From Anaerolinea sp. (lineage in GTDB: Bacteria > Chloroflexota > Anaerolineae > Anaerolineales > Villigracilaceae), in the NCBI GenBank assembly GCA_020723805.1, contig DYID01000005.1:1-64000 (forward strand): a stretch of 64,000 nt of DNA, written 5' to 3'. Shown in pieces: positions 14,291 to 42,927 of this stretch. Position 1 is the stretch's first letter, and each line of letters starts with the position of its first letter. The notes under the pieces are model-generated. The model saw only the letters and a program-made list of their open reading frames with translations, searched no databases and was not told the origin of the DNA. A program made the translations under genes and the position numbers.

Positions 14291-14359
14291 TTACACGCGG
14301 CGGGACTGCTATGTACCAGCGAACGCCCAAACGTTCAGTTTCCAACCATTTTCTATTTT

Positions 14360-27631: not shown

Positions 27632-27732
27632 AAACTCGCGGGGAGAAAAGGCTGTGGAAGGCAGGGCAGGCACGGGCGGAGTCGGGGGCGGGTCTTCGTC
27701 TCCCCAAATTCATTCCGTTGCGAAAAAGGCGG

Positions 27733-27756
27733 GAGTATAATGCAGTCACTATACTC
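27733..27756. promoter_or_regulatory. Interrupted palindrome over the putative malK -10 box
   Basis: GAGTATA and TATACTC are perfect inverted repeats 10 bases apart. The left arm includes TATAAT (27736-27741), a good -10 hexamer for malK, which starts at 27779. A suitable -35 is weak. The palindrome is a fair operator candidate for the ROK regulator encoded downstream or another repressor. Confidence 0.5.
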
Positions 27757-27778
27757 TCACGAAACGGAGGAATGACCC

Positions 27779-28879
27779 ATGGCTAGTGTTACGTTCAGAA
27801 ACGTCTACAAGCGGTTTGGAGACGTGATTGCCGTCAACAATCTGAACATCGAAGTTGGCGACAAGGAATTTCTGGTGCTTGTCGGTCCTTCGGGGTGCGG
27901 CAAGACGACCGCCCTGCGCTGTCTGGCGGGTTTGGAGGAAATCAGCGAGGGCGAGATTTTGATTGGCGACCGGGTGGTAAACGATGTTCCGCCCAAAGAC
28001 CGTGACATTGCCATGGTCTTCCAGTCCTATGCGTTGTATCCCCATCTGTCGGTGTATGACAATATGGCGTTCGGTTTGAAACTGCGCAAAGTGCCGAAGG
28101 AGGAAATCAAACGCCGCGTGTATGAAGCGGCAGACATCCTCGGCATCCGCGATTTGTTGGATCGCAAGCCGCGCCAGCTTTCGGGCGGTCAGCGTCAGCG
28201 TGTGGCGGTGGGACGCGCCATCGTGCGCGAGCCGAAGGTCTTCCTGTTCGACGAGCCGCTCTCAAACCTGGACGCCAAACTGCGCGTGGCGATGCGCGCC
28301 GAAATCAGCAAACTGCATCAGCGCCTGCAAACGACCTTTATTTACGTCACCCACGACCAGACGGAAGCCATGACCATGGCGACCCGCATTGCGGTCATCA
28401 ACAAGGGCATTTTGCAGCAGCTCGACACGCCGCAGAATCTTTACGATAAACCCAACAACTTGTTCGTGGCTGGCTTCATCGGCTCGCCTGCCATGAACTT
28501 CTTCCCCGGCAAACTGCGCAAGCAGGACGGAAAACTGCTGGTAGATACCGGCGACTTTGCAGTAACGATCCCGCCCAGCCGCGCCCAGCCCTACGAAGCG
28601 CACGTCGGCAAGGACATCATTTTTGGCATCCGCCCCGAAAACGTCCACGATGTGGACTTTACGCCGCCGAACATTGACGCAGAGAGAGTCACGGTGAAGG
28701 TGGATGTGACCGAGTTGATGGGCAACGAAATCTTCCTGTACCTCGTCAGCGGAAGGAACACGTTTGTCGCCCGCGTGGATCCGCGCTCGAAACTGCGCAT
28801 CGGGCAGGAAGCGCAGGTGGCGTTCGACATGGATAACTTCCACATTTTCGACGCCGCAACCGAGCAAGCCATTCGGTAG
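27779..28879 (+). CDS. malK: Sugar ABC transporter ATPase, MalK/UgpC type
   Basis: The 366-residue ATPase has Walker A GPSGCGKTT, signature LSGGQRQRVAVGRA, Walker B VFLFDEPLSNLD and the switch histidine THDQTEAMTMA. The C-terminal third is the TOBE/OB regulatory domain with GIRPENVHDVD, which marks the MalK/UgpC/MsmK class. GGAGG lies 9 bases before the ATG. The binding protein and permeases are 1.5-6.7 kb downstream, past the ROK gene; the ATPase may serve several sugar transporters, as MsmK does. Confidence 0.94.
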   Translation: MASVTFRNVYKRFGDVIAVNNLNIEVGDKEFLVLVGPSGCGKTTALRCLAGLEEISEGEILIGDRVVNDVPPKDRDIAMVFQSYALYPHLSVYDNMAFGLKLRKVPKEEIKRRVYEAADILGIRDLLDRKPRQLSGGQRQRVAVGRAIVREPKVFLFDEPLSNLDAKLRVAMRAEISKLHQRLQTTFIYVTHDQTEAMTMATRIAVINKGILQQLDTPQNLYDKPNNLFVAGFIGSPAMNFFPGKLRKQDGKLLVDTGDFAVTIPPSRAQPYEAHVGKDIIFGIRPENVHDVDFTPPNIDAERVTVKVDVTELMGNEIFLYLVSGRNTFVARVDPRSKLRIGQEAQVAFDMDNFHIFDAATEQAIR

Positions 28880-28900
28880 GGTTCGTCTTCTGCTTTCCAG

Positions 28901-28929
28901 TCGGCATCCGCAAGGGTGCCGATTTTTTT
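28901..28929 (+). terminator. Intrinsic terminator of malK
   Basis: TCGGCATCC and GGGTGCCGA form a 9-bp stem with one G-U pair, closed by the GCAA tetraloop and followed by seven Ts. Confidence 0.94.
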
Positions 28930-28951
28930 ATGGTTGAATTTGTTAAAATGC

Positions 28952-28980
28952 TTGAAAAAACAAAGAGGGTATGCTATTAT
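28952..28980 (+). promoter_or_regulatory. Promoter of the ROK regulator gene
   Basis: TTGAAA (28952-28957) and TATTAT (28975-28980) are 17 bases apart. A start near 28987 gives a leader of about 25 bases before ATG 29012. This also rules out the longer in-frame start at 28916. Confidence 0.7.
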
Positions 28981-29011
28981 CTGCTCAGTTTCTCGATACG
29001 ATAATGCCGTT

Positions 29012-30280
29012 ATGAGTACATTTTTCTGGCTCCCCGCCGACTACAATGTCAAGAGTTTTAACAAACATGCGGCTCTTGATTTGATTCGCTTTTCGGGGGC
29101 AGGGATGTCGAGGACGGAACTGGCAGAGCAAATGGGATTGACGCGCGCCGCTGTCAGTTTGATTGTGAACGATTTGCTCGAAAGCGGGGTGGTCATGGAG
29201 GCAGAGAGCCGCTCGGCGCCCAGCGGACGCCCGCCGATTGTCCTCGAAATCAACCCGGAACGGGGCTTGGTCGGCGCAATAGACATGGGGGCGACTCACA
29301 TGAGCATCGCCGTGGCGGATTTTGCCGCCCGCATTCATCAGGAAACGGAAATTTCTCTCGATATCAAAGACGGACCCGAAGTTTGCCTTGCCCAAGCAGA
29401 CAAACTGCTGAAACAGCTCCTTGCCGACAAGGGCTTGCCTGTTTCAGATCTTGCCGCCATTGGCGTGGGCGTGCCGGGACCGGTCATCACCGAAGCGGGT
29501 ACGGTGGTGGCGCCCCCCATCATGCCCGGCTGGGACCGCTATCCCATTCGGGCAAGCCTCGAAAAGAGTTGGGGGTGCCCCGTCACCCTCAACAACGACG
29601 CGGAGTTGGGCGCGCTGGGCGAATGGGCATACGGCGCAGGACGCGGCGAAAAGAACATCGCCTATATCAAAGTGGGAAGCGGCATTGGCGCAGGTTTAAT
29701 CCTCAACAAACAAATCTACGGCGGGACGACCGGCGCAGCAGGCGAAATCGGTCACCTGACCATTGACGAGAACGGTCCGTTGTGCAACTGCGGCAACCAT
29801 GGCTGCTTGGAGGCGTTTGCCGGCGGTCACGCCATTGCGCTTCAGGGACGGGCGCTGGCAAAATCAGGCAAACGGACACTGCTTGCCAGCCTGCCCGTGG
29901 AAAGCATTACGGCGCGGGAAGTGGCAGAAGCCGCCCGCCGCGGAGACCTGTATGCGCAGGAAATCATCCATCGCGCCGGCACCTACATTGGCATTGCCAT
30001 TGCCGGCTTGATCAATCTCTTCAACCCCAGCGTAGTCATCATCGGCGGCGGGGTGGCGGAGGTGGGCGATATGCTTACCACGCCCATCCGCCAGGCGGTT
30101 CGTGAGCGGGCAATGCGCGCCTCCGAACAGGGTGTGCGCATCACCACCGCCATGCTCGGACGCCGTTCCGTGTTGATTGGCGCCATCGTTCAGGCGGTAA
30201 ACGTCGCCATTCATGCCGCCGCTGAAAACAGAAATTCCACTTCAAAAGCCGTTTTCATGGAACCAGTCGAAGTGAATTAA
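29012..30280 (+). CDS. ROK family transcriptional regulator
   Basis: The 422-residue protein has an N-terminal winged helix-turn-helix (about 20-75, MSRTELAEQMGLTRAAVSL) and a ROK sugar-kinase-like domain with the phosphate loop GAIDMGATHMSIAV and zinc motif CNCGNHGCLEAFAGG. This is the NagC/XylR architecture: a sugar-responsive repressor. It is transcribed from its own promoter between malK and the binding-protein gene, so the maltodextrin locus is its most likely target. The kinase-domain residues look complete enough that sugar binding is expected; catalysis is not assured. Confidence 0.94.
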   Translation: MSTFFWLPADYNVKSFNKHAALDLIRFSGAGMSRTELAEQMGLTRAAVSLIVNDLLESGVVMEAESRSAPSGRPPIVLEINPERGLVGAIDMGATHMSIAVADFAARIHQETEISLDIKDGPEVCLAQADKLLKQLLADKGLPVSDLAAIGVGVPGPVITEAGTVVAPPIMPGWDRYPIRASLEKSWGCPVTLNNDAELGALGEWAYGAGRGEKNIAYIKVGSGIGAGLILNKQIYGGTTGAAGEIGHLTIDENGPLCNCGNHGCLEAFAGGHAIALQGRALAKSGKRTLLASLPVESITAREVAEAARRGDLYAQEIIHRAGTYIGIAIAGLINLFNPSVVIIGGGVAEVGDMLTTPIRQAVRERAMRASEQGVRITTAMLGRRSVLIGAIVQAVNVAIHAAAENRNSTSKAVFMEPVEVN

Positions 30281-30379
30281 TCCCGGGATAAGGAGGTGAT
30301 GCCTTTATAATCAACGAAATTACTGTCACGAGATAAACACTTCAAATTAACCCCTAAAATCCTACAAGGAGAAGAAGTA

Positions 30380-31951
30380 ATGAAAACCAAATTCAGTCTG
30401 TTGCTCAGCCTTTTGCTGATCTCAGCCTTCGTGCTTGCCGCCTGCGGCGGTGGAGCCACCGAAGCCCCCACCGAAGAACCGGCTCCTGCACCTACCGAAG
30501 CCCCAGCCGAACCGACTGCCGCTCCGGAACCCACTGCTGCCGCACCTGCCGGCACCCTGCGCATCTGGGCAGATGACACCCGCGCCCCCATCCTCCAAGA
30601 CTTGGCGGATGAAGTGCTCGCCGCCTACAACCTCGAACTCGTCGTCGAACTGAAGTCTGCCATCCGCGATGACTTTCAGGTTGCCGCTCCCCTCGGCGAA
30701 GGTCCCGACATCATCGTGATCCCTCACGACCAGGCTGGCACCCTCGTTGCCAATGGTCTGCTCGCTGAGGTGGATCTGGGCGACAAAGCCGCCGATTTCG
30801 CCCCTGTGGCGCTGCAAGCTTGTACCTTCGACGGCAAACTGTACTGCATGCCCTACGCCACCGAGAACCTGGCTTTCTTCTACAACAAAGACCTGGTTCA
30901 GACTCCTCCCACCACCTGGGATGAAGTCCTCGAAATGGGACGCGCCCTCAAGGCGGAAGGCAAAGTGGAATATGTGATGGCGGTGACCGGCACCACCTAC
31001 GATGTGTACCCGCTTTACACCTCCTTTGGCGGCTACATCTTCGGCAAACTCCCCAACGGCGACTGGAATCCTGAAGACCTCGGCGTGGACAGCCCCGGCA
31101 TGATCGAAGGCGTCAAGTGGCTTGCCGACGGCGTCAAAAACGGTGACCTGCCCGCCGATTGGGATTGGGCGAACAACCACGCTCTGTTCGAAACCGGCAA
31201 AGCGCCGTTCATCATGGCTGGACCGTGGGCTTTGAGCCGCATTCGCGAATCGGGCGTTCCCTACGCCATCACCAACTTCCCCAGCGGCGGTTATCCGTTC
31301 GCCGGCACGCAGGGCTTCTTCATCAATGCCCAGAGCGAAAACGTTCTGCTCGCTCAGGCGTTCCTGAACGAGTTCATTGCGACCGAAGATGTCATGCTCA
31401 AACTCTACGAAGTCGGTCAGCGCGCGCCTGCCTACCTGCCCGCTCTGGAAAAGGTTGACGATCCCGACCTGAAGGCGTTTGCCGAGGCTGGGAAAAACGC
31501 CACCATGATGCCCGCCATCCCCGCCATGGGTTCGGTGTGGGGCAACTGGAATGACGGCGTCGTCCTCGCCCGCGACGGCAAACAGGATCCCGAAACCGCC
31601 ATGAAGGAAGCTGCCGCCAAGATCCGCGCCCTGATTGCCAACCCGCTGACCGGCATGGTCAACATCCCCGGCTCGTATCAGGACGAAGCAGGCTGCTCCG
31701 GCGACTGGCAGCCCGACTGCGCCGCCACTGCCATGACCAAAGGCGACGACGGCAAATACTACAGTGGTCCGTTCACACTGCCTGCCGGCGACTATGAATA
31801 CAAGGTCGCTTTGGACGGGTCGTGGACGGTCAACTACGGCTCCGATGGCGCTCAGGATGGTCCCAATTACAAACTGAGCCTCACCGCCGAATCCAAAGTT
31901 TCCTTCATTTACGACCCCGCGACCAAGCTCGTCGAGGTCAAAGTTGAGTAA
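30380..31951 (+). CDS. malE: Maltodextrin-type solute-binding lipoprotein with C-terminal X25 module
   Basis: The 523-residue protein has a lipoprotein signal (LLISAFVLAACGGG, Cys22), a Pro/Glu/Ala/Thr linker (25-55) and a family 1 extracellular binding domain (about 57-430) with the family phrases LYCMPYATENLAFFYNKDL and GPWALSRI. Unusually, residues about 432-523 match the X25 module of amylopullulanases (GCSGDWQPDCAATAM, LPAGDYEYKVALDGSW). That module could help hold starch or glycogen chains. AAGGAG lies 10 bases before the ATG. A strong terminator follows, which would give more binding protein than permease. Confidence 0.93.
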   Translation: MKTKFSLLLSLLLISAFVLAACGGGATEAPTEEPAPAPTEAPAEPTAAPEPTAAAPAGTLRIWADDTRAPILQDLADEVLAAYNLELVVELKSAIRDDFQVAAPLGEGPDIIVIPHDQAGTLVANGLLAEVDLGDKAADFAPVALQACTFDGKLYCMPYATENLAFFYNKDLVQTPPTTWDEVLEMGRALKAEGKVEYVMAVTGTTYDVYPLYTSFGGYIFGKLPNGDWNPEDLGVDSPGMIEGVKWLADGVKNGDLPADWDWANNHALFETGKAPFIMAGPWALSRIRESGVPYAITNFPSGGYPFAGTQGFFINAQSENVLLAQAFLNEFIATEDVMLKLYEVGQRAPAYLPALEKVDDPDLKAFAEAGKNATMMPAIPAMGSVWGNWNDGVVLARDGKQDPETAMKEAAAKIRALIANPLTGMVNIPGSYQDEAGCSGDWQPDCAATAMTKGDDGKYYSGPFTLPAGDYEYKVALDGSWTVNYGSDGAQDGPNYKLSLTAESKVSFIYDPATKLVEVKVE

Positions 31952-31959
31952 GTAAGTTG

Positions 31960-31997
31960 AAAGAGGCTGAGGAACGCTGTTCCTCAGCCTCTTTTGT
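31960..31997 (+). terminator. Intrinsic terminator/attenuator between malE and malF
   Basis: AAAGAGGCTGAGGAAC and its exact complement form a 16-bp stem with loop GCT, ending in TTTT and followed by G. It lies 8 bases after the malE stop and 39 before malF, so partial read-through would set the ratio of binding protein to permease. Confidence 0.88.
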
Positions 31998-32035
31998 CTA
32001 TTCCCTACTCCACGCTTCTCCATCGAGGAGGTCCC

Positions 32036-33637
32036 ATGAGCCAAGCCCTGCCGGAAAAGCCAAAGAAAAGGTCCGGGATGACCGAAGAATCCTTCTTGTC
32101 GAGATTGATGCGGATCATCCTGCTGATCGTGTTCGACGCCGGAGCCGTCTGGTTCATCCAAAACGCCCTCTCCAAAGGCTTCGATCAACTGGCAATTGTC
32201 ATCGGCGTGATTGCCGTCATGTTCAACCTCATTTTCCTGCTCCCGCAGGCATATCCGCTGCGGTGGATGGCGTTCGGGCTGGGGTTCCTGATTCTGTTCA
32301 CCATTTACCCCATCATCTTTACGGTCTATGTGGCGTTTACGAACTATGGCGACGGGCACCTGCTCACCAAGGAGCAGGCAATTCCGCTCATCGAAAAGCA
32401 GGTTTATCTGCCCGAAGGAGGACGCTCCTATTCATGGACAGCCTACCGCAACGAGGCGGGCGAGTATGCGCTGTGGCTGATCAGTCCCGAAGGTGAGACC
32501 TTTCTGGCGAAACCCGGCGAGGAAATTCTGCCCGCCAAGCCCGGCGACCCCGGCATCGGCGAAGCGGACAGCAAGGGCATTCCCCTCTCCATCGAAGGCT
32601 ACCAGCGTCTCAACACTCTGCTTGCCGCCGCAGACAAGAATCTCCCCAACATCAAGTTTGGCTTGGAAGGCGATCAGGTCATTCAGATTCGCAACCCAAG
32701 CGAAGCCGCCGAATTACAGAGCCGCTTCAAATACGACGAAGCGACCGACACGGTGGTGGATCAGTCGAACGGCGAAATCTATTACAACGTGGACGGCACC
32801 TTCACTTCACGAACAGGGAAAACCATCTCGCCCGGCTTCCGCACCGTGGTGGGGCTGAAAAACTTCAGGGACTTCCTGACCAGCCCGGCGCTGCGTGGAC
32901 CGCTGGTTCAAATCGTCACCTGGAACTTCATCTTCCCGACGGTCAGCGTCGTTTCCACATTTGCGCTGGGGCTGGCAATCGCCATCATGTTCAACGACCC
33001 CGATTTCCCGTTCAAGAAATTAATCCGCTCCCTGCTCATCATTCCCTACACCATCCCCGGTTTGATCAGCATCATCATCTGGCGCGGCTTGCTGAACTCG
33101 GAATTCGGCATCGTCAACAAAATTCTGAACGACCTCATCGGCACCGCGCCGCGCTGGACGACGGAACCGTTCTGGGCGCAGGTGGCGATTCTGCTCGTGA
33201 ACTTATGGCTGGGTTACCCCTACATGATGCTGGTCAGCAGCGGCGCACTGCAATCCATCCCCTCCGACATCTATGAAGCGGCGATGATTGACGGGGCAAC
33301 TCCCTGGCAGCGATTTCGCCGCATCACCCTGCCCCTGCTGTTGATTGCCGTGGGTCCCCTGCTCATTGCTTCCTACGTCTTCAACTTCAACAACTTCAAC
33401 CTGATCTACCTGTTCATCGCCGGCGGTCCGCCCATCCCCAATGCGGCGACGCAGGCAGGCTATACCGACATCCTCATCAGTTACGTCTATAAACTCGCGT
33501 TCGAGAGCGGCGGGCGGGGCGTGCAATACGGTCTGGCGTCTGCCATCTCCATCGTGGTCTTCTTCATCGTAGGCGCGATTACCCTGTTCCAATACCGCTT
33601 CACCAATATGTGGGAGGAGGCAAGCGAAAATGTCTAA
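32036..33637 (+). CDS. malF: Maltose/maltodextrin ABC transporter permease MalF
   Basis: The 533-residue permease has three N-terminal membrane helices, a large external domain between about residues 105 and 285 as in E. coli MalF, and a permease core with the EAA loop EAAMIDGATPWQRFRRITLP near residue 420. ATG 32036 is used because GAGGAGGT lies 6 bases upstream; an in-frame start 14 codons earlier lies inside the terminator region. The external loop would contact the binding protein. It overlaps malG by 8 bases. Confidence 0.94.
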   Translation: MSQALPEKPKKRSGMTEESFLSRLMRIILLIVFDAGAVWFIQNALSKGFDQLAIVIGVIAVMFNLIFLLPQAYPLRWMAFGLGFLILFTIYPIIFTVYVAFTNYGDGHLLTKEQAIPLIEKQVYLPEGGRSYSWTAYRNEAGEYALWLISPEGETFLAKPGEEILPAKPGDPGIGEADSKGIPLSIEGYQRLNTLLAAADKNLPNIKFGLEGDQVIQIRNPSEAAELQSRFKYDEATDTVVDQSNGEIYYNVDGTFTSRTGKTISPGFRTVVGLKNFRDFLTSPALRGPLVQIVTWNFIFPTVSVVSTFALGLAIAIMFNDPDFPFKKLIRSLLIIPYTIPGLISIIIWRGLLNSEFGIVNKILNDLIGTAPRWTTEPFWAQVAILLVNLWLGYPYMMLVSSGALQSIPSDIYEAAMIDGATPWQRFRRITLPLLLIAVGPLLIASYVFNFNNFNLIYLFIAGGPPIPNAATQAGYTDILISYVYKLAFESGGRGVQYGLASAISIVVFFIVGAITLFQYRFTNMWEEASENV

Positions 33638-34547
33638 CCTCACTCGAACCTTCGGCGCCTTGCGTTCCTCGCAGAAATTCCAAAAACGCTTCAGCATCGC
33701 CATGCGGCTGGTCATTGCGGTGTTCCTGATTGCCTTCTCCATTTTCCCGGTGTTGTGGATCGTTTCCGCCTCTTTCGACCCGTCGCAATCACTCGCCACA
33801 CAGGAATCCATCATCCCGCGTAACGCCAGTCTGCAAAACTACCTGAGACTATTCGACAAGGACCCCAACTACAAGTTCGGCGACCTGGTCTTCCAAAAGT
33901 GGATTTTGAACTCCGTCAAAGTTTCGGGCATCTCCACCCTCCTCAGCCTGACCATCACCACCATGGCGGCGTATGCCTTCTCGCGTATGCGCTTCAAGGG
34001 ACGCGTCACCATGCTCAAGGGCATCCTGCTGATTCAGGTCTTCCCCAACCTGCTGGCGTTGGTCGCCATTTATGTGATCATCTTCCAGTTCGGCGAAATC
34101 ATCCCTGCACTGGGACTGAACACCCACGCCGGCCTGATCATGGTGTACCTCGGCGGTTCGATGGGCATGAACATCTGGCTGATGAAAGGCTTCCTCGACA
34201 CCATCCCGCGCGACATTGACGAATCGGGCATGGTGGACGGCGCCTCGCACTTCCAGATTTTCTGGCATCTCATCCTGCCGCTTCTGCGCCCCATCCTGGT
34301 GGTCATCGGCATCCTCTCCTTCATCGGCACCTACGGCGACTTCGTCCTCGCCCGCATTCTGCTCAACGACGTGAACCAGTACACCCTCATGGTGGGACTG
34401 CAAATCTTCACCGCCGGTCAATTCGACCAGAAATGGGGCGTCTTTGCCGCCGGCGCGTTGATTGGCGCACTGCCCATCATGCTCATTTATCTCGCCCTGC
34501 AAGACCAAATCGTCGGCGGGTTGACTCAGGGAGCGGTCAAAGGATAG
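33630..34547 (+). CDS. malG: Maltose/maltodextrin ABC transporter permease MalG
   Basis: The 305-residue permease has six membrane segments and the EAA-type loop DESGMVDGASHFQIFWHLILP that contacts the ATPase. The N-terminal part (SILDPSQ-like VSASFDPSQS) and the C-terminal tail after the last helix are typical for MalG. It starts within the last codons of malF and ends one base before the FG-GAP/peroxidase fusion gene. Confidence 0.94.
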   Translation: MSNLTRTFGALRSSQKFQKRFSIAMRLVIAVFLIAFSIFPVLWIVSASFDPSQSLATQESIIPRNASLQNYLRLFDKDPNYKFGDLVFQKWILNSVKVSGISTLLSLTITTMAAYAFSRMRFKGRVTMLKGILLIQVFPNLLALVAIYVIIFQFGEIIPALGLNTHAGLIMVYLGGSMGMNIWLMKGFLDTIPRDIDESGMVDGASHFQIFWHLILPLLRPILVVIGILSFIGTYGDFVLARILLNDVNQYTLMVGLQIFTAGQFDQKWGVFAAGALIGALPIMLIYLALQDQIVGGLTQGAVKG

Positions 34548-34548
34548 G

Positions 34549-37512
34549 ATGCGCCGCGTCATTGTCGTTTCGATTCTGGCAGTCATCGCGATAGCCCTGT
34601 TCCTCGCACAGGGCTATCTGCGCTATGCCGCTCAACATCCTGTCGAAGAACCGCCCATCTTTGCGGATGTCAGCCGGCGGGCGGGTATTGTGAATAACCG
34701 CGTTGCAGGCATCGAAATGTCGGCGGGCATCGCCTGGGGTGATTACGACAACGACGGCTGGATTGACCTCTACGTCACCGACCCCATCGGCAAAAACACG
34801 CTCTACCGCAACAACGGCGACGGCACGTTCAGCCTCTCGCCCCTCGCCGATCAAGTTGCCCTCTTCAACACCTACTCGCAAGGCGCAACTTTCGCCGACT
34901 ATGACAACGACGGCTGGAAAGACCTGCTCGTCGTCAACTGGGGGCAGGATCACCTCTTCCACAACGAGCAGGGCAAAGGCTTCGTGGAGGTCTCCCGCCG
35001 GGCGGGCATCGTGGATGACCGCAACAGCAAATCCGCCTCGTGGGGCGACTACGACAACGACGGCTTCCTCGACCTCTACATCGCCAACTGGTCCTGTTAT
35101 CCCAAATGCGGACGTCAGTTCGACGGCGAGCCGGACCGCCTCTATCACAACAACGGCGACGGCACGTTCACCGAAGTCACCCATCTGCTCAACGGCGGCG
35201 TGAGCGGCGCGGGCTTCATCGCCTCTTTCACCGACTACGATAACGACGGCGACCTCGACATTTACCTCGTCAACGACGAATTCATCAACCCCATCGGCAA
35301 CAAACTCTGGCGCAACGACGGCGCCGGCTGCGGCGGCTGGTGCTTCACGCAGGTTGCCAAAGAAGCAAACGCCGATTCCAAAGTCTTCGGCATGGGGCTC
35401 GCCCCCGGCGATTACGACAACGATGGCGACGTGGACTTCTACTACTCCAACGTCGGTCCCATGGAACTGCTTCAGAATCAAGGCGATGGCACGTTCAAGA
35501 ACGTTGCCAAAGAAGCCGGCGTGAATTTCCCGATGGGCATCGGCTGGGGCGCAGTCTTCCTCGACTACGACAACGACGGCTGGCGCGACCTTTACCTCGC
35601 CGTCGCCGACACCGCCGACCACAAGGACGTCGGCGCCAACCAACTCTTCCACAATAACGCCGACGGCACGTTCACCCCCGTCGCCTGCAACAACGAGTCA
35701 ACCGACATCCGCATGAGCATCGGCGTTGCCTACGCCGACTACGACCACGACGGCTGGGTGGACCTCGTCGTCGGCAACCTCGACGAAGGTTACCGCCTCT
35801 ACAAAAACCAGCAGGGACAAACCTCCGGCAACCACTGGCTTGCCATCGAACTCCTCGGCGCAGGACCCGTCAACCGCGACGCCGTCGGGACGCGCGTCTA
35901 CGTCACCGCGGGCGGCGTGACGCAAATGCAGGAAGTCATCCTCGGTTCGAGCGTCATGGCAGGTAACGACCTCGCGCAGTACTTCGGTCTCGGCAAGGAG
36001 CGAAGCGCACAGGTCCGCATCCGCTGGAGCGACGGCACGGAACAGGTCATCCAAAACGTCGAAGCCGACCGGCGCTACAAAATCCAATACGGCGAAAGGG
36101 CGTTACAGCCCCTGCCCGCGACTCCCGTCGTAAAAATCGCCAAGCCATCCTTCCTCGCCTACCTCCGCACCCTTACCAATTACCAATTACCATTTACCAC
36201 CAACCCCGACTCCCAACTCTCCCGCCTCATGGCTCAGGCAAACGTCGCACCGCCCACCAACCCGCCTCCGCCTTCGCCCGCGCTCGTCAAACTCGGTGAA
36301 GCGCTCTTTTGGGACCCCATCCTGAGCGGCAACCGAGACATTTCCTGCGCCACCTGCCACCACCCGAACCTCGGCACAGGCGATAACCTCTCCGTCTCCA
36401 TCGGCACAAATGGCTTCGGTCTTGGCAAGAACCGCCAATTCGGGAACGCCCGCGAACTCGTCCCGCGTAACGCCACTCCGCTCTACAATCTCGGATATCA
36501 AGAATGGCGCGTCATCTTCTGGGACGGGCGCGTCTCTGCGGACCCTGAAACTGGATTCCACACCCCAGCCTCCGACCGCCTCCCCGGCGGACTCGACAGC
36601 GTCCTCGCCGCGCAAGCCATGTTCCCCGTCACCTCGCGCGACGAAATGCGCGGCTACCGCGGCGACGTGGACATCTTCGGTCAGCCCAACGAACTCGCGG
36701 TCATCGTGGATTACAAGGCGCGTCCCGTTTGGGAAGCATTGATGGCGCGCCTGCTGGCGATCCCCGGCTATGTGGACTTGTTCCGCGCCGCCTACCCCGA
36801 CGTGCCGCTCGACCAACTCGGCTTTCAGCACGCGGCGAATGCGATGGCGGCGTATGAGATTGCCGTCTTCACTTTCGAAGACTCCCCCTTCGACCGGTAC
36901 CTTCGCGGCGACCCATCTGCACTTTCGGAAGAAGCCAAACAGGGCGCGTTGTTATTCTACGGGGAGGCGGGCTGCGCCTCCTGTCACTCCACCGGTCTGC
37001 TCACCGACCAAAAATTCTACAACCTCGCCGTTCCGCAAATCGGCGACGGCAAGGGACGCGAACAACCCCTCGACCTCGGGCGCGCCCGCGAAACCGGCAG
37101 CGACTGCGACCGTTTTGCCTTCCGCACCCCGCCGCTTCGCAACGTCGCCATTACGGGACCCTGGATGCACAACGGCGCGTTCACCACGCTCGAGGCAGCC
37201 GTCCGCCACCACCTCGACCCGAAGACCAGCCTGCAAAATTACGACCCCAGCCAGTTGAGCGAACTGCTCAAAGATACCTGTCAGGATCAGCCCGAAACCC
37301 TCGCCGCCATCCTCAAGTGGTACACGCCTAAAAACGCCAGCGAGGGCGTGACCCTCACGGACGAGGAGATGCGCCTCCTGCTCGTCTTCCTCGAGTCGCT
37401 CACCTCCCCCTCTGCCCTCGACCTCAGCCACACCATCCCCGCCTCTGTCCCCAGCGGACTTCCCGTCGGGGGGAATATCCAGAATATCGAAACAGGTTCA
37501 GCCGTCCCGTAG
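34549..37512 (+). CDS. FG-GAP/UnbV propeller fused to di-haem cytochrome c peroxidase
   Basis: This 987-residue protein has an N-terminal helix (about 4-22; signal or anchor), seven FG-GAP/VCBS repeats with calcium-type motifs such as DYDNDGWIDLYV (about 60-425), an ASPIC/UnbV domain (about 440-515, HWLAIELLGAGPVNRDAVGT, WSDGTEQVIQNV), a short linker and a MauG/cytochrome c peroxidase-like domain (about 570-960). Haem motifs CATCH (600-604) and CASCH (809-813) are intact. It would be exported and hold two c-type haems. The ATG lies one base after the malG stop, so it is coupled to the transporter genes. A role in oxidising a carbohydrate or protecting the operon proteins from peroxide is speculation. 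Confidence 0.92.
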   Translation: MRRVIVVSILAVIAIALFLAQGYLRYAAQHPVEEPPIFADVSRRAGIVNNRVAGIEMSAGIAWGDYDNDGWIDLYVTDPIGKNTLYRNNGDGTFSLSPLADQVALFNTYSQGATFADYDNDGWKDLLVVNWGQDHLFHNEQGKGFVEVSRRAGIVDDRNSKSASWGDYDNDGFLDLYIANWSCYPKCGRQFDGEPDRLYHNNGDGTFTEVTHLLNGGVSGAGFIASFTDYDNDGDLDIYLVNDEFINPIGNKLWRNDGAGCGGWCFTQVAKEANADSKVFGMGLAPGDYDNDGDVDFYYSNVGPMELLQNQGDGTFKNVAKEAGVNFPMGIGWGAVFLDYDNDGWRDLYLAVADTADHKDVGANQLFHNNADGTFTPVACNNESTDIRMSIGVAYADYDHDGWVDLVVGNLDEGYRLYKNQQGQTSGNHWLAIELLGAGPVNRDAVGTRVYVTAGGVTQMQEVILGSSVMAGNDLAQYFGLGKERSAQVRIRWSDGTEQVIQNVEADRRYKIQYGERALQPLPATPVVKIAKPSFLAYLRTLTNYQLPFTTNPDSQLSRLMAQANVAPPTNPPPPSPALVKLGEALFWDPILSGNRDISCATCHHPNLGTGDNLSVSIGTNGFGLGKNRQFGNARELVPRNATPLYNLGYQEWRVIFWDGRVSADPETGFHTPASDRLPGGLDSVLAAQAMFPVTSRDEMRGYRGDVDIFGQPNELAVIVDYKARPVWEALMARLLAIPGYVDLFRAAYPDVPLDQLGFQHAANAMAAYEIAVFTFEDSPFDRYLRGDPSALSEEAKQGALLFYGEAGCASCHSTGLLTDQKFYNLAVPQIGDGKGREQPLDLGRARETGSDCDRFAFRTPPLRNVAITGPWMHNGAFTTLEAAVRHHLDPKTSLQNYDPSQLSELLKDTCQDQPETLAAILKWYTPKNASEGVTLTDEEMRLLLVFLESLTSPSALDLSHTIPASVPSGLPVGGNIQNIETGSAVP

Positions 37513-37555
37513 GTTTGAAGCGCGGACGGTTTGAATACAGAAAAGGTTCACACGG

Positions 37556-39196
37556 ATGAAGATTTTATCCAGGCTTGTCCCCTTCTTCCTGCTCGTCATC
37601 CTGTTGATGGGATGCGCCTCGCCCACACCGACAGCGCCGCCTCCCACCCTCACCCCCACCCCCCCGCCCGACCCCTACGCCGGCACCGACGGTTTCCCCT
37701 GGTGGAACGACACCGTCTTCTATGAGATTTTCGTCCGCTCGTTCTACGACAGCAACGGCGACGGCATCGGCGACTTCAACGGCATCACCGCAAAACTCGA
37801 CTACCTCCAAGGCTTGGGCATCAAGGGCATCTGGCTCATGCCCATTCACCCCTCGCCCTCCTATCACGGCTACGACGTGACCGACTATTACGCCGTCAAC
37901 CCCGATTACGGCACGCTGGAGGATTTCAAACGCCTGCTCGCAGAGGCGCACCAGCGCGGCATCAAAATCATCATTGACTTCGTGATGAACCATACCTCCG
38001 CCAGGCATCCCTGGTTTCAGCAGGCGCTCACACCGGGCAGTCCGTATCACGACTGGTATGTTTGGAGCGAAACCGACCCCGGCACGCTCGGTCCATGGGG
38101 CGCCAAAGCCTGGCACCGCGCCAGCAACGGACAATACTACTACGCCATCTTCTGGGACCAAATGCCCGACCTCAACTACGAAAACCCCGCCGTGCGCGAA
38201 GAGATGAAAAAGGTCACCTCTTTCTGGCTCGAAGAAGTCGGCGTGGACGGCTTTCGCCTCGACGCAGTGCGCTATCTTGTCGAAGGCGACCAACTGGCGG
38301 ATTCCAAAGCCAACCACGCTTTCCTCGAAGAATGGGGGCAGTATTACCGCAGTCTCAACCCGCGGGCGTTCACCGTCGGCGAAGCATGGACCGACAACGC
38401 CAACGTCAAGAAATACACGGACACCAATCGCGAACTCGACTCCGCCTTCAACTTCGACCTTTCTGACGCCATGCTCAAACTCAACGAAGGCAGTGTCACC
38501 AGCCTGCGCTTCGTCCTGCAAACCACCCTGCGCGACTTCCCCGAACAGGACAACGCCAACTTCATCACCAACCACGACATGCCGCGCGTCATGAGTCAAT
38601 TGGGAGCGGATAAAGAACAGCGGGCGAAACTCGCCGCGGGCATCCTGCTCACCGCGCCGGGTATTCCCTTCATCTACTACGGCGAAGAGATTGGCATGAG
38701 CGGCACCAAGCCCGACGAACTCATCCGCACGCCCATGCAATGGGACAACTCGCCCAACGCCGGCTTCACCAGCGGCAGCCCCTGGCAGGCGGTCAACTCC
38801 GATTTCCCCTTTGTCAACGTTGCCAGCCAGCAGGGCGCAAGCAATTCCCTGCTCGAACATTACCGCACGCTCATCCAACTCCGCAACGCCCACTCCGCCC
38901 TGCGCATCGGCAAGACCTACGTGGCGGAATCCAACTCCAACAAAATCCTCTCCTACCTGCGCGTCAGCAGTGACGAGACGATGCTCATCCTCATCAACAT
39001 TGACGACCAACCCTTGAACAACTACACCCTCGACCTCTCCAGCGGTCCGCTGGCGGGTCAATACACCGCCGCGTCCCTGCTCGATTCTTCCGCGCCCGCC
39101 CCGCTCACCGCGAACGATAAAGGCGGCTTCGACGGCTACGCCCCGTTCCCCGAACTCCCGCCGTACAGCATGTTTGTCATTCAACTCACGCCATAG
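37556..39196 (+). CDS. Lipoprotein alpha-amylase family (GH13) glycosidase
   Basis: The 546-residue enzyme has a lipoprotein signal ([11 protein letters not shown], Cys20), a Thr/Pro linker and a complete GH13 barrel. The catalytic residues are Asp236 in [11 protein letters not shown], Glu276 in TVGEAWTD and Asp341 in ITNHDMPRV. The N-terminal phrase [19 protein letters not shown] is like alpha-glucosidase/trehalose-type GH13 members. A C-terminal beta domain follows (about 465-546). It should act outside the membrane on starch-like glucans and feed oligosaccharides to MalE. It lies 43 bases after the peroxidase fusion gene. Confidence 0.93.
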
Positions 39197-39202
39197 CGTA
39201 TT

Positions 39203-39224
39203 GGGAACGTTAGAGAACGTTCCC
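39203..39224. repeat. Short hairpin repeat, GTTAGAGAAC core (copy 2)
   Basis: GGGAACGTTAGAGAACGTTCCC is a perfect hairpin with a 9-bp stem and loop AGAG. Confidence 0.65.
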
Positions 39225-39244
39225 TACGCATAACATGGCGTACT

Positions 39245-39262
39245 CGGCGTTCTCTAACGCCG
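39245..39262. repeat. Short hairpin repeat, GTTAGAGAAC core (copy 3, inverted)
   Basis: CGGCGTTCTCTAACGCCG is a perfect hairpin with 7-bp stem and loop CTCT, the reverse orientation of copy 2. A further hairpin TTTGCGCTAGAGAGCGCAAA follows at 39264-39283. Together they form a tight hairpin cluster between two GH13 genes. Confidence 0.65.
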
Positions 39263-39315
39263 CTTTGCGCTAGAGAGCGCAAACTACACAACCGACAACC
39301 ACTTAAAAACTCATC

Positions 39316-39387
39316 TTACGCAGTTTCTTCGTAGCGCGACATTGATGTCGCCTGAAAATGCGAGATTAATCTCGCGCTACCGCGTAA
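39316..39387. repeat. Palindromic repeat family A (copy 2, inverted)
   Basis: TTACGCAGTTTCTTCGTAGC at one end and GCGCTACCGCGTAA at the other match the reverse complement of the copy at 20578-20678. The internal GATGTCGCCTGAAAA and CGAGATTAATCTCG blocks are conserved. This copy lacks the insert of copy 1. Confidence 0.85.
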
Positions 39388-39414
39388 CACAAGTTAAAAA
39401 TTCAAGGACACCTC

Positions 39415-41184
39415 ATGGAAGACTTCATCTTCGGAACCCTCGCCACTGACGAATCACGCCTCCGCCATCTGCGCGAAACCCTCGGCGGCGTGACCCACGC
39501 CCACAAACGCCTCCCGCGCGACCCTCAGCCGGGTCAGCCCGTCCAAATCTTTCTCACCCTCGGACCCGACCACCCTCACCCCCGCGCCTGGGTCTATTGG
39601 ACGAATGACGGCACCGACCCCGCCGGCGCAAACGGACGCGCCTCCAACGGCTATGCTGTGCCGCTCGAACCCATCGCCTCCGAATGGAACACCTTCCTGT
39701 GGGGCTACGTCCGCACCTTTCGCGGCGAGATTCCTCCACAGCAGGCAGGGACGGTTGTCCGTTACCGCGTGTCGGCGGGAGGAAACGGCGAAGAAACCTT
39801 CGCTGACAATGACGCGTACTACGCTTTCTATGTGGACAACGACCCGCCTCCCGCTTGGACGAAAGACGCCGTCATCTACCAAATCTTTGCCGACCGCTTC
39901 TTCAATTCCGCAGGCGATTTTCCTAAACTAGAGCCAAAGCCCTCTCTCAAATGCAATGGCACGCTCACCGGCGTTATCGAGAAATTGGACTATCTCGTCG
40001 AACTCGGCGTCAACTGTCTGTGGCTCACGCCCATCTTTCCCAGTCCAAGTTATCATGGCTACGACGCGACCAACTTCTTCGCGATCAATCCGCGTCTCGG
40101 CGACGCGGAGGATTTCAGGGAACTTATCGAGCAGGCGCACAGTCGCGGCATCCGCATCCTGATGGATTTCGTCCCCAATCACTGGTCGAATCAGCATCCC
40201 ACGTTTATCGAAGCCACGCAGAATCCCAACAGCGAATACGTGAAGTGGTACACGTTTGAGCAGTATCCCGAAAAGTACAAAACCTTCTTCGGCGTGAAGA
40301 CCCTGCCGCAAATCAACCTGCGCTACGCCCCCGCACGCCAGCATGTGCTGGATGCCGCCAAATACTGGCTGGAGTTCGGCGTGGACGGTTTCCGTGTGGA
40401 CTATTGCATCGGTCCCACGCCCGATTTTTACGCCGACTTTCGCCGCGTCACGCGCACGACCAAACCCGATTCCTGGACCTTCGGCGAAGCCGTGGACCCA
40501 CCCGACTCGCAACTGACCTTCGAGGGCGGCATGGATGGCGCACTCGATTTCATGCTCCTCGAAGCCTTGCGCAAGACCTTCGCTTTCGGCAAGTGGAACG
40601 CCAAACAGTTCGCCGACTTCCTCGACCGTCACGAAGCATACTTCCCCGCATCCTTCTCGCGCCCGTCGTTCCTCGACAACCACGACATGAACCGCTTCCT
40701 GTGGGCGGCGCACAACGACATACAGAAACTCAAACTGGCGGCGATGTGTCAGTTCACACTGGCCGGCGCACCCATCATCTACTACGGCACGGAGGTGGGA
40801 CTCTCCCAGCCCGCCGACGTGATGCAGCACGGACGCGCCATCCACGAAGAGGCGCGTATGCCCATGCTCTGGGGAGATGACCAAAACAGAGACCTGTTCG
40901 AGTTCTATCGTCAACTCATTCAAATCCGAAAGAACGAAACTGCTTTGCGATATGGGACGCGTGAAACCATCCTTGCCGCCGAGGAAATCCTCGTCTATCG
41001 CCGCGCCGACGGGAACGGAAGTCTCCTGTGTGCGCTGAACATTTCGGAGAAGGCAATCGAATTCGAGGTGGAGGCTGCCGAGTCCAGCCCCAGGCTGAAG
41101 ACCAGCCCCGCTTGCAGGATTCAGGCTGAGGGTGGAAAGAAGCGTTTCTTCCTTCCGCCGTTCAGCGGGATGATCGTCAAATAA
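39415..41184 (+). CDS. GH13 glycosidase with N-terminal beta domain (neopullulanase/maltogenic amylase-like)
   Basis: The 589-residue enzyme has an N-terminal Ig/CBM34-like domain (about 1-145), a GH13 barrel and a C-terminal beta domain. Catalytic residues are Asp329 (DGFRVDYCIG), Glu358 (WTFGEAVD) and Asp424 (FLDNHDMNRF). There is no signal peptide, so it should act in the cytoplasm on imported dextrins. The N-terminal domain plus barrel suggest a neopullulanase/cyclodextrinase-like role. The preceding gap is filled by hairpin repeats, so it may have its own promoter. Confidence 0.92.
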   Translation: MEDFIFGTLATDESRLRHLRETLGGVTHAHKRLPRDPQPGQPVQIFLTLGPDHPHPRAWVYWTNDGTDPAGANGRASNGYAVPLEPIASEWNTFLWGYVRTFRGEIPPQQAGTVVRYRVSAGGNGEETFADNDAYYAFYVDNDPPPAWTKDAVIYQIFADRFFNSAGDFPKLEPKPSLKCNGTLTGVIEKLDYLVELGVNCLWLTPIFPSPSYHGYDATNFFAINPRLGDAEDFRELIEQAHSRGIRILMDFVPNHWSNQHPTFIEATQNPNSEYVKWYTFEQYPEKYKTFFGVKTLPQINLRYAPARQHVLDAAKYWLEFGVDGFRVDYCIGPTPDFYADFRRVTRTTKPDSWTFGEAVDPPDSQLTFEGGMDGALDFMLLEALRKTFAFGKWNAKQFADFLDRHEAYFPASFSRPSFLDNHDMNRFLWAAHNDIQKLKLAAMCQFTLAGAPIIYYGTEVGLSQPADVMQHGRAIHEEARMPMLWGDDQNRDLFEFYRQLIQIRKNETALRYGTRETILAAEEILVYRRADGNGSLLCALNISEKAIEFEVEAAESSPRLKTSPACRIQAEGGKKRFFLPPFSGMIVK

Positions 41185-41213
41185 ACAACGCAGGCGCACC
41201 TTTGATTAGGCAA

Positions 41214-41241
41214 GGTAGCGCGACATTAATGTCGCGCTACC
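41214..41241. repeat. Family A core palindrome (copy 4)
   Basis: GGTAGCGCGACATT and AATGTCGCGCTACC form a 28-base perfect palindrome that equals the central arms of the longer family A copies. Confidence 0.8.
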
Positions 41242-41355
41242 GCTAAGTCGGCAGTTATTGGAAAAGCGCAAATTGAAAAACCTTATTTAACAACGCCTGC
41301 CAAGATCTCCGAAACAAGATAGAATCATTATCCATTCCAACTTCGAGGTTACTCC

Positions 41356-42861
41356 ATGACCATCACCGCACCCGACTGGGTACAAGACGCCGTCTTTTAC
41401 CAGATTTTCCCCGACCGCTTCGCCCGCAGCGAACGCAACCCCGCCCGCACTCTGCCCTTCGAGCCGTGGGATTCGCCCCCCACTCCACACGGCTTCAAGG
41501 GCGGCGACTTGTACGGAGTCGCCGAAAAACTGGATTATCTGAAGGACTTGGGAATCACGGCTCTTTACCTGAACCCGATTTTTGCCTCCGCTTCGAATCA
41601 CCGCTACCACGCCTACGACTATTACACGGTGGACCCGCTCCTCGGCGGCAACGACGCCTTCCGCCATTTGCTGGACAAGGCGCACAAGAAGGACATCCGC
41701 ATCGTGCTGGACGGTGTCTTCAACCACGCCTCGCGCGGCTTCTGGCAGTTCCATCACGTGCTCGAATGCGGCGACGGCTCGCCCTACAAAGACTGGTTCC
41801 ACTTCGACCCCGACCGCCTGACCCGCAAAAAGCACTGGGGCGCATACCCCGGTCCGCAGGAACAGAAGGCGTTGAGTCACGGGGAGCCGAGTCTCACTGC
41901 CATCGGCTATGGCGCGTGGTGGAATTTGCCCGCCCTGCCCAAGTTCAACACCCGCACCCCTGCCGTGCGCGAGTTCCTCTTCGGCGTCGCCGAACATTGG
42001 ATTCGCTTCGGCGCAGACGGCTGGCGGCTGGACGTGCCGACCGAAATTGACGACGACTCGTTCTGGCAGGAGTTCCGCCGCCGCGTGCGGAAGATCAACC
42101 CCGAGGCGTACATCGTCGGCGAAATTTGGCACGAGTCACAGCGCTGGCTGCAGGGCGATCAGTTCGACGCCGTCATGAACTACGAGGTGACCAAGCCGGT
42201 CATCGCCTTTTTCTCGAACGGTCACCTCGACCTGAAGGTCTTGCATCAGCAAAGCAACTATCACGGCATTCAGCACTCGATTGATGCCCACGAATTCGCC
42301 GACCGCATTGACCATAACCTGGGGCTGTATAAAAAGGACATCACCTACGCCCAGTTGAATCTGCTCGACAGCCATGACACGCCGCGCTTCCTCTCCTGCG
42401 TGGGCGGCGACAAGGCTTCGCTCAAACTGGCATGGCTGTTCCTGTTCGCCTATCCCGGCGCGCCGTGCATCTACTACGGCGATGAAATCGGCATGGAAGG
42501 TCAGCACGACCCGGACTGCCGCCGCTCCTTCCCTTGGGACGAGAACAAGTGGGATCACAGTCTGCGCGAGTATGTCAAAGAACTCATCGCCCTGCGCAAA
42601 AAGAATCCCGCCCTGCGGCGCGGCGACTACAGGAGGCTGTGGTCGGCGAACGGGACGTATGTGTTCTCGCGCTCGCTCGAGGGAAAGACGTTTGTGGTGG
42701 GGTTGAATGTGTCGGAGACGCCTCAGCAGGTTCACGTCACGTATGAGGCGGGGAAGGTCCCCAAGCCTGTGTTTGGAGAGGCGTCCGAGATTTCCATCCG
42801 CGAAGGGCGGCTGTGGTTCACCATCCCGCCGCGCAGCGGTGTGGTGCTCAAGAGTGCGTAG
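41356..42861 (+). CDS. GH13 glycosidase (neopullulanase/cyclomaltodextrinase-like, no N-terminal domain)
   Basis: The 501-residue enzyme begins directly with the barrel (PDWVQDAVFYQIFPDRFARS). Catalytic residues are Asp226 (DGWRLDVPTE), Glu256 (YIVGEIWHES) and Asp341 (LLDSHDTPRF). The motif around Asp226 is the one of neopullulanase, cyclomaltodextrinase and maltogenic amylase; the CBM34 domain of these enzymes is missing. No export signal is seen. It is the last gene of the alpha-glucan block and is closed by the terminator at 42893-42927. Confidence 0.93.
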   Translation: MTITAPDWVQDAVFYQIFPDRFARSERNPARTLPFEPWDSPPTPHGFKGGDLYGVAEKLDYLKDLGITALYLNPIFASASNHRYHAYDYYTVDPLLGGNDAFRHLLDKAHKKDIRIVLDGVFNHASRGFWQFHHVLECGDGSPYKDWFHFDPDRLTRKKHWGAYPGPQEQKALSHGEPSLTAIGYGAWWNLPALPKFNTRTPAVREFLFGVAEHWIRFGADGWRLDVPTEIDDDSFWQEFRRRVRKINPEAYIVGEIWHESQRWLQGDQFDAVMNYEVTKPVIAFFSNGHLDLKVLHQQSNYHGIQHSIDAHEFADRIDHNLGLYKKDITYAQLNLLDSHDTPRFLSCVGGDKASLKLAWLFLFAYPGAPCIYYGDEIGMEGQHDPDCRRSFPWDENKWDHSLREYVKELIALRKKNPALRRGDYRRLWSANGTYVFSRSLEGKTFVVGLNVSETPQQVHVTYEAGKVPKPVFGEASEISIREGRLWFTIPPRSGVVLKSA

Positions 42862-42881
42862 AATGCGTTCTCTAACGCATT
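42862..42881. repeat. Short hairpin repeat, GTTAGAGAAC core (copy 4, inverted)
   Basis: AATGCGTTCTCTAACGCATT is a perfect hairpin with 8-bp stem and loop CTCT, right after the GH13 stop codon. Confidence 0.65.
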
Positions 42882-42892
42882 ACGGAGGAACG

Positions 42893-42927
42893 AAAACAGC
42901 GCTGGGCAAATGCCTTGCGCTGTTTTT
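42893..42927. terminator. Intrinsic terminator between GH13 and sirtuin genes
   Basis: AAAACAGCGC and GCGCTGTTTT form a 10-bp stem with a 14-base loop, followed by T on the plus strand. It overlaps the sirtuin stop codon and can serve both convergent genes. Confidence 0.8.

Follow-up and report, generated by a model that had tools for sequence, protein, structure and literature searches.

The bacterial cytochrome c peroxidases (bCCP), MauG and BthA belong to one superfamily (PF03150), whose members share two CxxCH haem motifs, a Trp residue and a distal Gln/Pro/Glu pocket. In canonical bCCP, the low-potential haem carries a distal His ligand before activation; in hydrazine synthase gamma, haem gammaI is held by a third Cys bond. 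As far as the accessible portion of one report goes (PMC6405878), the second axial ligand of haem 2 is Met in bCCP and Tyr in MauG and BthA; when this Tyr is exchanged for His, neither MauG (Y294H) nor BthA (Y463H) has the bis-Fe(IV) feature, and Y463H BthA keeps its peroxidase turnover. For hydrazine synthase (HZS) beta-gamma, and likewise for its fused form in Scalindua japonica, the available excerpts of two further papers describe a propeller combined with a di-haem CCP-like part whose second haem is bis-His, and HZS beta-gamma homologues of some clades adjoin CRTAC1 and ABC binding-protein genes (PMC12758564, PMC12607021).

CRTAC1 (cartilage acidic protein 1) and the bacterial FG-GAP/UnbV proteins combine a propeller with an UnbV fold, and MalEFGK maltodextrin importer operons contain malK, ROK, malE, malF, malG and GH13 genes. 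To our knowledge, no sugar importer carries a haem enzyme. Among the open-licence papers listed, judged by titles and the beginnings of abstracts, there was no account of a fusion like the one described here.

A propeller/di-haem gene in a maltodextrin operon

The window, i.e. the whole stretch of 64,000 nucleotides that was analysed, holds a binding protein, two permeases, an ATPase and alpha-glucan hydrolases in one gene run, the gene content of a MalEFG operon with predicted maltodextrin transport (Table 1). It differs from the described MalEFGK operons in an additional gene straight after malG. ORF coordinates bore out the position given by the sequence-only reading: one base separates the malG stop from the ATG of the fusion gene, and 43 bases lie between the end of this gene and the lipoprotein amylase. 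A pattern scan of positions 27600-43000 returned 3 promoter-like sites (4.3 expected) and 22 terminator-like sites (18.5 expected), with one of the promoter-like sites on the malG/fusion border (34521-34550). These counts make no case for separate transcription of the fusion gene. No electron-donor gene was found among the nine operon proteins scanned with Pfam.

Table 1. Coordinates of the operon genes and of the parts of the fusion protein in the window
Feature	Positions	Strand	Basis or remark
MalK-like ABC ATPase	27779..28879	+	Pfam ABC_tran/OB_MalK
ROK-family regulator	28916..30280	+	Pfam ROK
MalE-like binding protein, C-terminal X25 module	30380..31951	+	Pfam SBP_bac_8 with X25
MalF-like permease	31994..33637	+	Pfam BPD_transp_1
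MalG-like permease	33630..34547	+	Pfam BPD_transp_1
FG-GAP/UnbV (CRTAC1-type) propeller and di-haem CCP/MauG-type domain fusion	34549..37512	+	ATG start, 987 aa
Hydrophobic N-terminal stretch (residues 4-22), either signal or membrane anchor	34558..34614	+	Hydropathy scan; helix 2-29 in model
Seven-loop FG-GAP propeller, residues about 35-428	34651..35832	+	
UnbV/ASPIC domain, residues 445-510	35881..36078	+	Pfam
Linker, residues about 521-560	36109..36228	+	Short in window protein
Haem 1 motif CATCH, residues 600-604	36346..36360	+	Predicted open, active haem
Trp658 (MauG Trp93 equivalent)	36520..36522	+	Alignment
Distal pocket Gln689, Pro693, Glu699 (MauG Gln103, Pro107, Glu113 equivalents)	36613..36645	+	Alignment
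Haem 2 motif CASCH, residues 809-813	36973..36987	+	
His888, at MauG axial Tyr294 position	37210..37212	+	HMMER alignment to MauG chains
Lipoprotein GH13 amylase	37556..39196	+	Pfam GH13
GH13 protein	39415..41184	+	Pfam
GH13 protein	41356..42861	+	Pfam

The proposed domain make-up was confirmed by Pfam and by the CATCH and CASCH motifs. FG-GAP_3 (155.8 bits) and UnbV_ASPIC (59.2 bits) both scored above their curated cut-offs, and this order of an FG-GAP propeller and then an UnbV domain is that of the CRTAC1/FG-GAP-UnbV family. CCP_MauG matched residues 578-788 with 137.2 bits (cut-off 25.6), which together with the two CxxCH motifs places the haem part in the superfamily. Seven Dx[DN]xDG loops, at residues 65, 117, 167, 229, 288, 339, and 397, correspond to the seven calcium-type repeats noticed earlier, and the N-terminal hydrophobic segment agrees with the idea that the protein is probably exported or anchored. 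In most other close relatives (the mal-type fusions described below) the linker holds a transmembrane segment or hairpin. The propeller with its UnbV domain (residues 34-516) superposed on CRTAC1 (9etn) with Z 44.0 over 453 aligned residues (2.4 A, 22% identity), and Foldseek also matched the propeller fold to the sugar-binding lectins 2bwr and 4tqm and to aldos-2-ulose dehydratase 4a7k. Unlike CRTAC1 and the bacterial FG-GAP/UnbV proteins, the window protein carries a di-haem domain and sits in an ABC uptake operon.

A search of the own genome at E≤0.001 matched the fusion once and returned no second copy. Genome G014 contains a 92% identical copy in the same operon, and dN/dS between the two was 0.12 for the whole fusion, 0.09 for the propeller and 0.11 for the haem part, with 0.07 for malG. 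Given this copy and the low dN/dS, the fusion is not an assembly artefact.

Haem pocket and family placement

In the AlphaFold model of the whole protein the haem part was poor and haem geometry was not taken from it, so the assignment of haem ligands rests on sequence alignment. Across 47 relatives, Glu699 and Pro693 were present in all, Gln689 in 46 and Trp658 in 43. All 14 mal-type fusions keep both CxxCH motifs, Gln689, Pro693, Glu699, and His888, and 13 of them Trp658, which is Leu in G603. By this alignment the haem pocket is intact in the fusion. His at position 620, which aligns with the MacA His, occurred in 0/47 relatives, and the distal His of canonical bCCP is therefore not seen here. 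Neither is the Met-His second haem of canonical bCCP nor the axial Tyr294 of MauG: residue 888 of the window protein is His (by alignment only), and among the 47 relatives this position is occupied by His (44), Met (2) or Gln (1) and never by Tyr. Compared with bCCP, MauG and BthA, the fusion thus differs in a predicted His as second axial ligand of haem 2 and in its propeller partner.

The three best NCBIfam models for the fusion were all MauG-like and all remained below their cut-offs: the nearest, TIGR03981 (His-Xaa-Ser system-associated MauG-like), gave 275.3 bits over residues 552-951 against a cut-off of 340, followed by TIGR03791 (MauG; 136.2 versus 443.85) and TIGR04039 (MbnH; 125.6 versus 362.85). 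A His-Xaa-Ser partnership of the fusion was not supported, as TIGR03978, which we take to be the HxsB-type radical SAM maturase of this system, exceeded its cut-off in 0/15 genomes and gave weaker matches in every one of them as well as in each of the 14 controls; the fusion is unlike TIGR03981 proteins in both respects. Its architecture and predicted bis-His haem 2 resemble HZS beta-gamma as the accessible excerpts portray it. The two differ in propeller type, which is FG-GAP/UnbV in the fusion, and in score, the fusion reaching 21 bits with the hydrazine_gamma model NF052341, whose cut-off is 625. Families for cytochrome c assembly and COX1 exceeded their cut-offs in 15/15 genomes tested and do not discriminate, being present also in both genomes that have a propeller without the haem domain (see below).

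Distribution and importer neighbourhoods

Fourteen close fusions (mal-type) form one clade with support 100/97. The claimed coupling to malEFG held: malG lies upstream in 12/12 other mal-type fusions with readable upstream DNA, and fusions never found near sugar transporters, the pattern expected had the claim been wrong, were not what emerged. The place after malG is conserved. Protein distances of malE correlated with those of the propeller (Spearman 0.79) and of the haem part (0.74) in 11 genomes, versus -0.26 for malE and amy2 in 10 genomes; divergence of the fusion is correlated with that of malEFG.

The mal operons of G054 and G041 carry in the same slot a propeller with a C-terminal hydrophobic segment and no haem domain, and that of G023 has only a remnant; the haem part is therefore dispensable. 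DNA past the stop in G054 and G041, read in three frames, contained no recognisable haem-domain remnant. The fusion occurs in 2/18 genomes of its own genus (the own genome and G014), and any part of it was matched at E≤1e-60 in 16/400 genomes of the order and 8/400 of the phylum. MalG relatives without a fusion were found in G028, G016, and at two places of G055; the G028 and G016 loci look like galactan operons, judging by sequence. Three haem matches at contig edges (G1100:C501, G916:C310, and G1084:C309) were not counted as fusions. The first two of these adjoin amylases.

Further fusions, in both domain orders, adjoin GDPD/CUT1-, CUT2-, and nucleoside-type importers. The neighbourhoods examined comprised 40 places, 20 more and four others out of 92 listed rows. 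Among loci no shorter than 14 kb, a cut set after the first set was known, an importer permease lay near 21/22 fusions (16/16 in the first set and 5/6 in the held-out set, the exception being the 14.6-kb locus L290), compared with 5/16 haem-only genes and 4/40 background windows. When MalF and MalG of the window served as the only reference, the counts were 13/16, 5/6, 5/16, and 2/40, respectively. For haem-only genes (5/28 overall), linkage at the same length cut was not clearly above background (p 0.10). Long-type haem genes without an UnbV propeller had a permease nearby in 0/8 cases, versus 12/19 for the long fusions, and GDPD adjoins 6/13 held-out long fusions, 1/40 background windows and 0/12 mal-type loci. 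No permease was found at the first-set fusion loci L191, L192, L199, L218, and L219 (4-12 kb), at the held-out loci L287, L290, L291, L296, and L297 (6.4-14.6 kb), or near any of the 72 CRTAC1-like loci from other phyla.

The N-terminal parts of two long fusions (L215 and L222) gave weak matches only, to soluble quinoprotein glucose dehydrogenase, gluconolactonase-type proteins, a putative oxidoreductase and unrelated chains, with one NHL match just below the cut-off in L222. We claim nothing for them beyond a possible propeller.

Possible roles of the fusion

The reading that we favour, with a probability of roughly 0.4, makes the fusion an extracytoplasmic accessory of ABC uptake, tethered to the membrane, in which the predicted di-haem domain would reduce peroxide or some similar oxidant. 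Loaded with calcium, the CRTAC1-like propeller would serve together with the UnbV domain as the platform on which the binding protein, permease, hydrolase or glucan docks. Haem 1, held by His604 and with an open distal side bearing Gln689 and Glu699, would bind and reduce H2O2 or a similar small oxidant, and haem 2, with predicted bis-His ligation by His813 and His888, would relay electrons supplied by a respiratory donor. Oxidant would be cleared locally where importer and hydrolases act, leaving the sugar itself unchanged. The conserved place after malG, the divergence correlated with malEFG, the linkage to several importer types, the intact pocket, and the peroxidase turnover kept by Y463H BthA, which has the equivalent exchange, speak for this reading. 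Weighing against it are the mal operons that do without the haem part, the presence in 2/18 genomes of the genus, the lack of an electron-donor gene among the nine operon proteins scanned, and the ten fusion loci with no permease. Of the two chemistries proposed by the sequence-only reading, the conserved pocket and the predicted His in place of the MauG axial Tyr favour peroxide removal over oxidation of a partner.

The closest competitor assigns the peroxide another use, a MauG-type maturase modifying residues of a partner, for instance the binding protein, an amylase or its own propeller. The CCP_MauG family, the MauG-like character of the top NCBIfam models and the conserved Trp658 and distal pocket speak for it. 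That all three models stay below their cut-offs, that TIGR03978 does so in every genome tested, and that the Tyr294 position is never Tyr argue against maturation; the Tyr-to-His variants of MauG and BthA lack bis-Fe(IV) in the accessible portion of PMC6405878. We regard it as unlikely. An oxidase acting on glucan bound by the propeller would suit both the amylase/maltodextrin operon and the fold matches to lectins and 4a7k, and is nonetheless quite improbable, since related fusions adjoin importers for other substrates and some mal operons have the propeller only. We also know of no precedent for sugar oxidation in the CCP/MauG superfamily. The propeller-only proteins in G054 and G041, together with the missing permease linkage of long-type haem genes lacking the UnbV propeller, could mean that the propeller is the working part, for binding or as a scaffold, and the haem domain optional or vestigial. 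Against this stand the low dN/dS of the haem domain and its motifs kept throughout the mal-type fusions (save one Trp658), which make such a role doubtful, to the same degree as sugar oxidation.

By analogy with HZS gamma, in which a bis-His haem gammaII is partnered by the propeller of beta, the fusion might reduce a small nitrogen compound. The likeness in architecture and the CRTAC1 and binding-protein neighbours of some HZS beta-gamma homologues, both drawn from the excerpts available, invite the comparison; we consider it highly improbable, since NF052341 scores very low and the neighbours scanned in the window include no alpha-type protein. The gene might also travel with malEFG through shared transfer, a mosaicism of the operon that would have no functional meaning; this would fit the patchy distribution and the small number of fusion lineages, because of which the fusion loci are not independent. 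Several lineages with differing domain orders and importers nevertheless show the same link, which recurs in held-out loci over a background of 4/40, so that mosaicism seems distinctly unlikely.

Returning to the favoured accessory role, a redox branch specific to alpha-glucan use, as first suggested, proved too narrow in the face of the GDPD/CUT1-, CUT2- and nucleoside-type neighbours and the two propeller-only mal operons. The linkage suggests that nutrient uptake has a redox accessory which has so far gone unrecognised, and not that starch is used by a special route. With odds somewhat short of even, the Anaerolineae CRTAC1-type propeller and di-haem proteins may be a recurrent accessory of this kind for ABC nutrient importers, their domains joined several times and in both orders, with uptake and an extracytoplasmic haem reductase forming one unit. 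As part of the same tentative proposal, the lineages would differ by importer, with a matching hydrolase in two of them (amylases with MalEFG and GDPD with CUT1) and the others being nucleoside-type and CUT2.

The fusion adds one more pairing of a propeller with a di-haem CCP-like part, besides HZS beta-gamma and its homologues. If the link is functional, outer redox chemistry would be tied to nutrient uptake in Anaerolineae, and bacterial CRTAC1-type propellers would gain a role.

Place of the fusion gene in the mal operon

The fusion gene lies 1 base downstream of malG, and a gene for a lipoprotein GH13 amylase begins 43 bases downstream of it. Pfam places FG-GAP repeats, UnbV/ASPIC (residues 445-510) and CCP_MauG (578-788) in the encoded protein, in which the Dx[DN]xDG loop occurs seven times and the CxxCH motif twice; its operon neighbours are MalK-like, ROK, MalE-like (with an X25 module), MalF, MalG and three GH13 proteins. 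The closest curated haem model, TIGR03981, scored 275 bits, below its cut-off of 340, and the fusion found a single match in its own genome.

Any part of the fusion protein (E<=1e-60) was matched in 16 of 400 genomes of the order and 8 of 400 of the phylum, and the haem domain (E<=1e-40) in 65 of 396 of the class. The related loci are the best 80 of at least 567 relatives, with L031/G744, L033/G932 and L035/G974 treated as same-record pairs and counted once each. In the haem tree, 14 close propeller-haem fusions, including that of the window, form one clade (support 100/97). Upstream DNA was readable for 12 of the 13 other mal-type fusions (the close propeller-haem fusions of this clade), the thirteenth, G1092, starting at a contig edge. 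The sequence-only reading had set an FG-GAP/UnbV and di-haem gene inside a sugar-uptake operon and proposed looking for it beside malEFG in relatives; the place is real and conserved, with malG upstream in all 12 (in L031 as a fragment of 109 aa at the contig edge). It directly precedes the fusion in 11, an amylase gene intervening in L032. The next large gene encodes a GH13 protein in 12 of the 13 others; at L033/G932 no GH13 gene was found downstream up to the contig end.

Protein distances among 11 genomes correlated between malE and the propeller (0.79) and between malE and the haem domain (0.74) but not between malE and amy2 (-0.26; 10 genomes for amy2, whose rows may mix paralogues), so that malEFG and the fusion seem to be passed on as one unit while the amylases vary.

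Coordinates of the fusion and related features
Feature	Location	Coordinates	Strand	Observation
Fusion ORF	window	34549-37512	+	intact, ATG start
UnbV-haem linker	window	36109-36228		no transmembrane segment or hairpin (hydropathy scan)
MalE-like protein	window	30380-31951		X25 (pullulanase-type) module at C-terminal residues 427-516
1281-aa protein	locus L112	1647-5492		three stretches resembling the C-terminus of window MalE
GH31-type protein	locus L185 (G1076)	12114-14882		inside the mal operon
53-aa ORF	locus L238 (G023)	8788-8949		between malG and amylase gene; matches fusion residues 5-47
Unfused pair	locus L143 (G526)	1-1810		UnbV-ending gene 46 bases upstream of separate haem gene
Unfused pair	locus L294 (G845)	1-4250		separate propeller gene 55 bases downstream of haem gene

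Loss and partial forms

A MalG search of 61 relatives (E<=1e-80) gave ten places in nine genomes: the fusion was present in three, the propeller alone in two (G054, G041) and a short ORF, which is a remnant of the fusion gene, in one (G023), while the fusion was absent from four (G028, G016 and, twice, G055). The fusion, and its haem part above all, is therefore dispensable.

For 10 of the 14 mal-type fusions, a hydropathy scan predicted a transmembrane segment or hairpin between UnbV and the haem domain; those of the window, G014 and L031 lack it, and the G850 linker is likewise hydrophobic. In the same scan, a single hydrophobic segment ends the propeller-only proteins of G054, G041, G136 and L034, though not that of L036. 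The fusion may have arisen when a membrane-anchored propeller joined a haem protein bearing its own N-terminal anchor.

Importers beside the fusion types

Haem-first/propeller-second proteins of ~1000 aa form a separate clade (5 rows, 100/98), and longer fusions of ~1300-1500 aa comprise an N-terminal part, a haem domain and a propeller. On the propeller tree, with some rows on long branches, the propeller-first type cannot be explained by fewer than three changes. The L196 fusion adjoins a mal operon and that of L201 a CUT2-type importer; nucleoside-type BMP importer genes lie near the haem-first fusion of L202 and one such permease near that of L193. The importer genes neighbouring these two are of BMP/BPD_transp_2 type. 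Long fusions at L214, L215 and L216 adjoin CUT1 permeases, a binding protein and a hydrolase of glycerophosphodiester type (GDPD), and L223 likewise has CUT1 permeases and GDPD (by BLAST) near its long fusion, as do six held-out loci (L285, L288, L289, L293, L295, L298). This suggests a glycerophosphodiester uptake version of the fusion.

Among the loci collected first, with the window left out, an importer permease lay near 20 of 26 fusion loci (21 counting the partial malG of L031), 5 of 28 haem-only loci, 1 of 7 propeller-only loci elsewhere in Chloroflexota and both propeller-only mal loci (2/2). None was found near haem genes with the N-terminal part but without UnbV (0/2) or near CRTAC1-like loci of other phyla (0/72). 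Restricted to loci >=14 kb, a cut-off set after a first look at the data, the counts were 16/16 for fusions, 5/16 for haem-only loci and 4/40 for background windows, which we placed ourselves. As a check we used 20 further, previously unexamined places from class-wide haem-domain matches: 13 long fusions, six haem genes with the N-terminal part without UnbV and one unfused propeller and haem pair (L294). A CUT1 permease lay near 8 of the 13 long fusions (5/6 at >=14 kb, L290 being the miss) and near the unfused pair, and no importer permease near the haem genes (0/6). GDPD was present at 6/13 held-out long-fusion loci, 1/40 background windows and 0/12 mal-type loci. With window MalF/MalG as the only reference, the counts at >=14 kb were 13/16 (first-set fusions), 5/6 (held-out), 5/16 (haem-only) and 2/40 (background); the three first-set fusions missed in this way were L193, L201 and L202, with importers of CUT2 or BMP type. 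The fusion loci are not independent, since the mal clade accounts for 8 of the first 16 at >=14 kb and every held-out fusion is a long one.

Haem site, fold and predicted role

All 47 haem domains compared have Pro693, Glu699 and the Cys and His residues of the two CxxCH motifs; Gln689 is present in 46 of them and Trp658 in 43. Position 888, aligned by HMMER to MauG Tyr294, carries His in 44 domains, Met in two, Gln in one and Tyr in none, and the best-scoring chain, 3orv, has His there; position 620, aligned with the MacA distal His, is His in none of the 47. Excerpts of PMC6405878 describe Y294H MauG and Y463H BthA as lacking the bis-Fe(IV) feature and Y463H BthA as retaining peroxidase turnover. 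Together with His at 888, the behaviour of these variants, as excerpted, favours a predicted electron-fed peroxidase-like role over MauG-type maturation.

The structure model, built from 33 sequences (mean pLDDT 75.7), is good in the propeller and UnbV and poor in the haem part. Its top structural match, over modelled residues 34-516, is CRTAC1 9etn (Z 44.0), and propeller lectins, MacA and aldos-2-ulose dehydratase rank lower in Foldseek; such matches are no evidence of sugar binding. In excerpts of PMC12607021 and PMC12758564, HZS gamma pairs with a propeller and its haem gammaII is bis-His, a likeness to the fusion that is structural only.

The chemistry predicted as most likely for the fusion is reduction of peroxide or a similar oxidant. 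Of the redox branch of alpha-glucan use first proposed, the redox link stands as a prediction, whereas the limit to alpha-glucans is not supported, with fusions beside GDPD/CUT1, CUT2 and BMP importers. The reading should be widened beyond alpha-glucan redox, to a putative redox accessory of ABC uptake operons.
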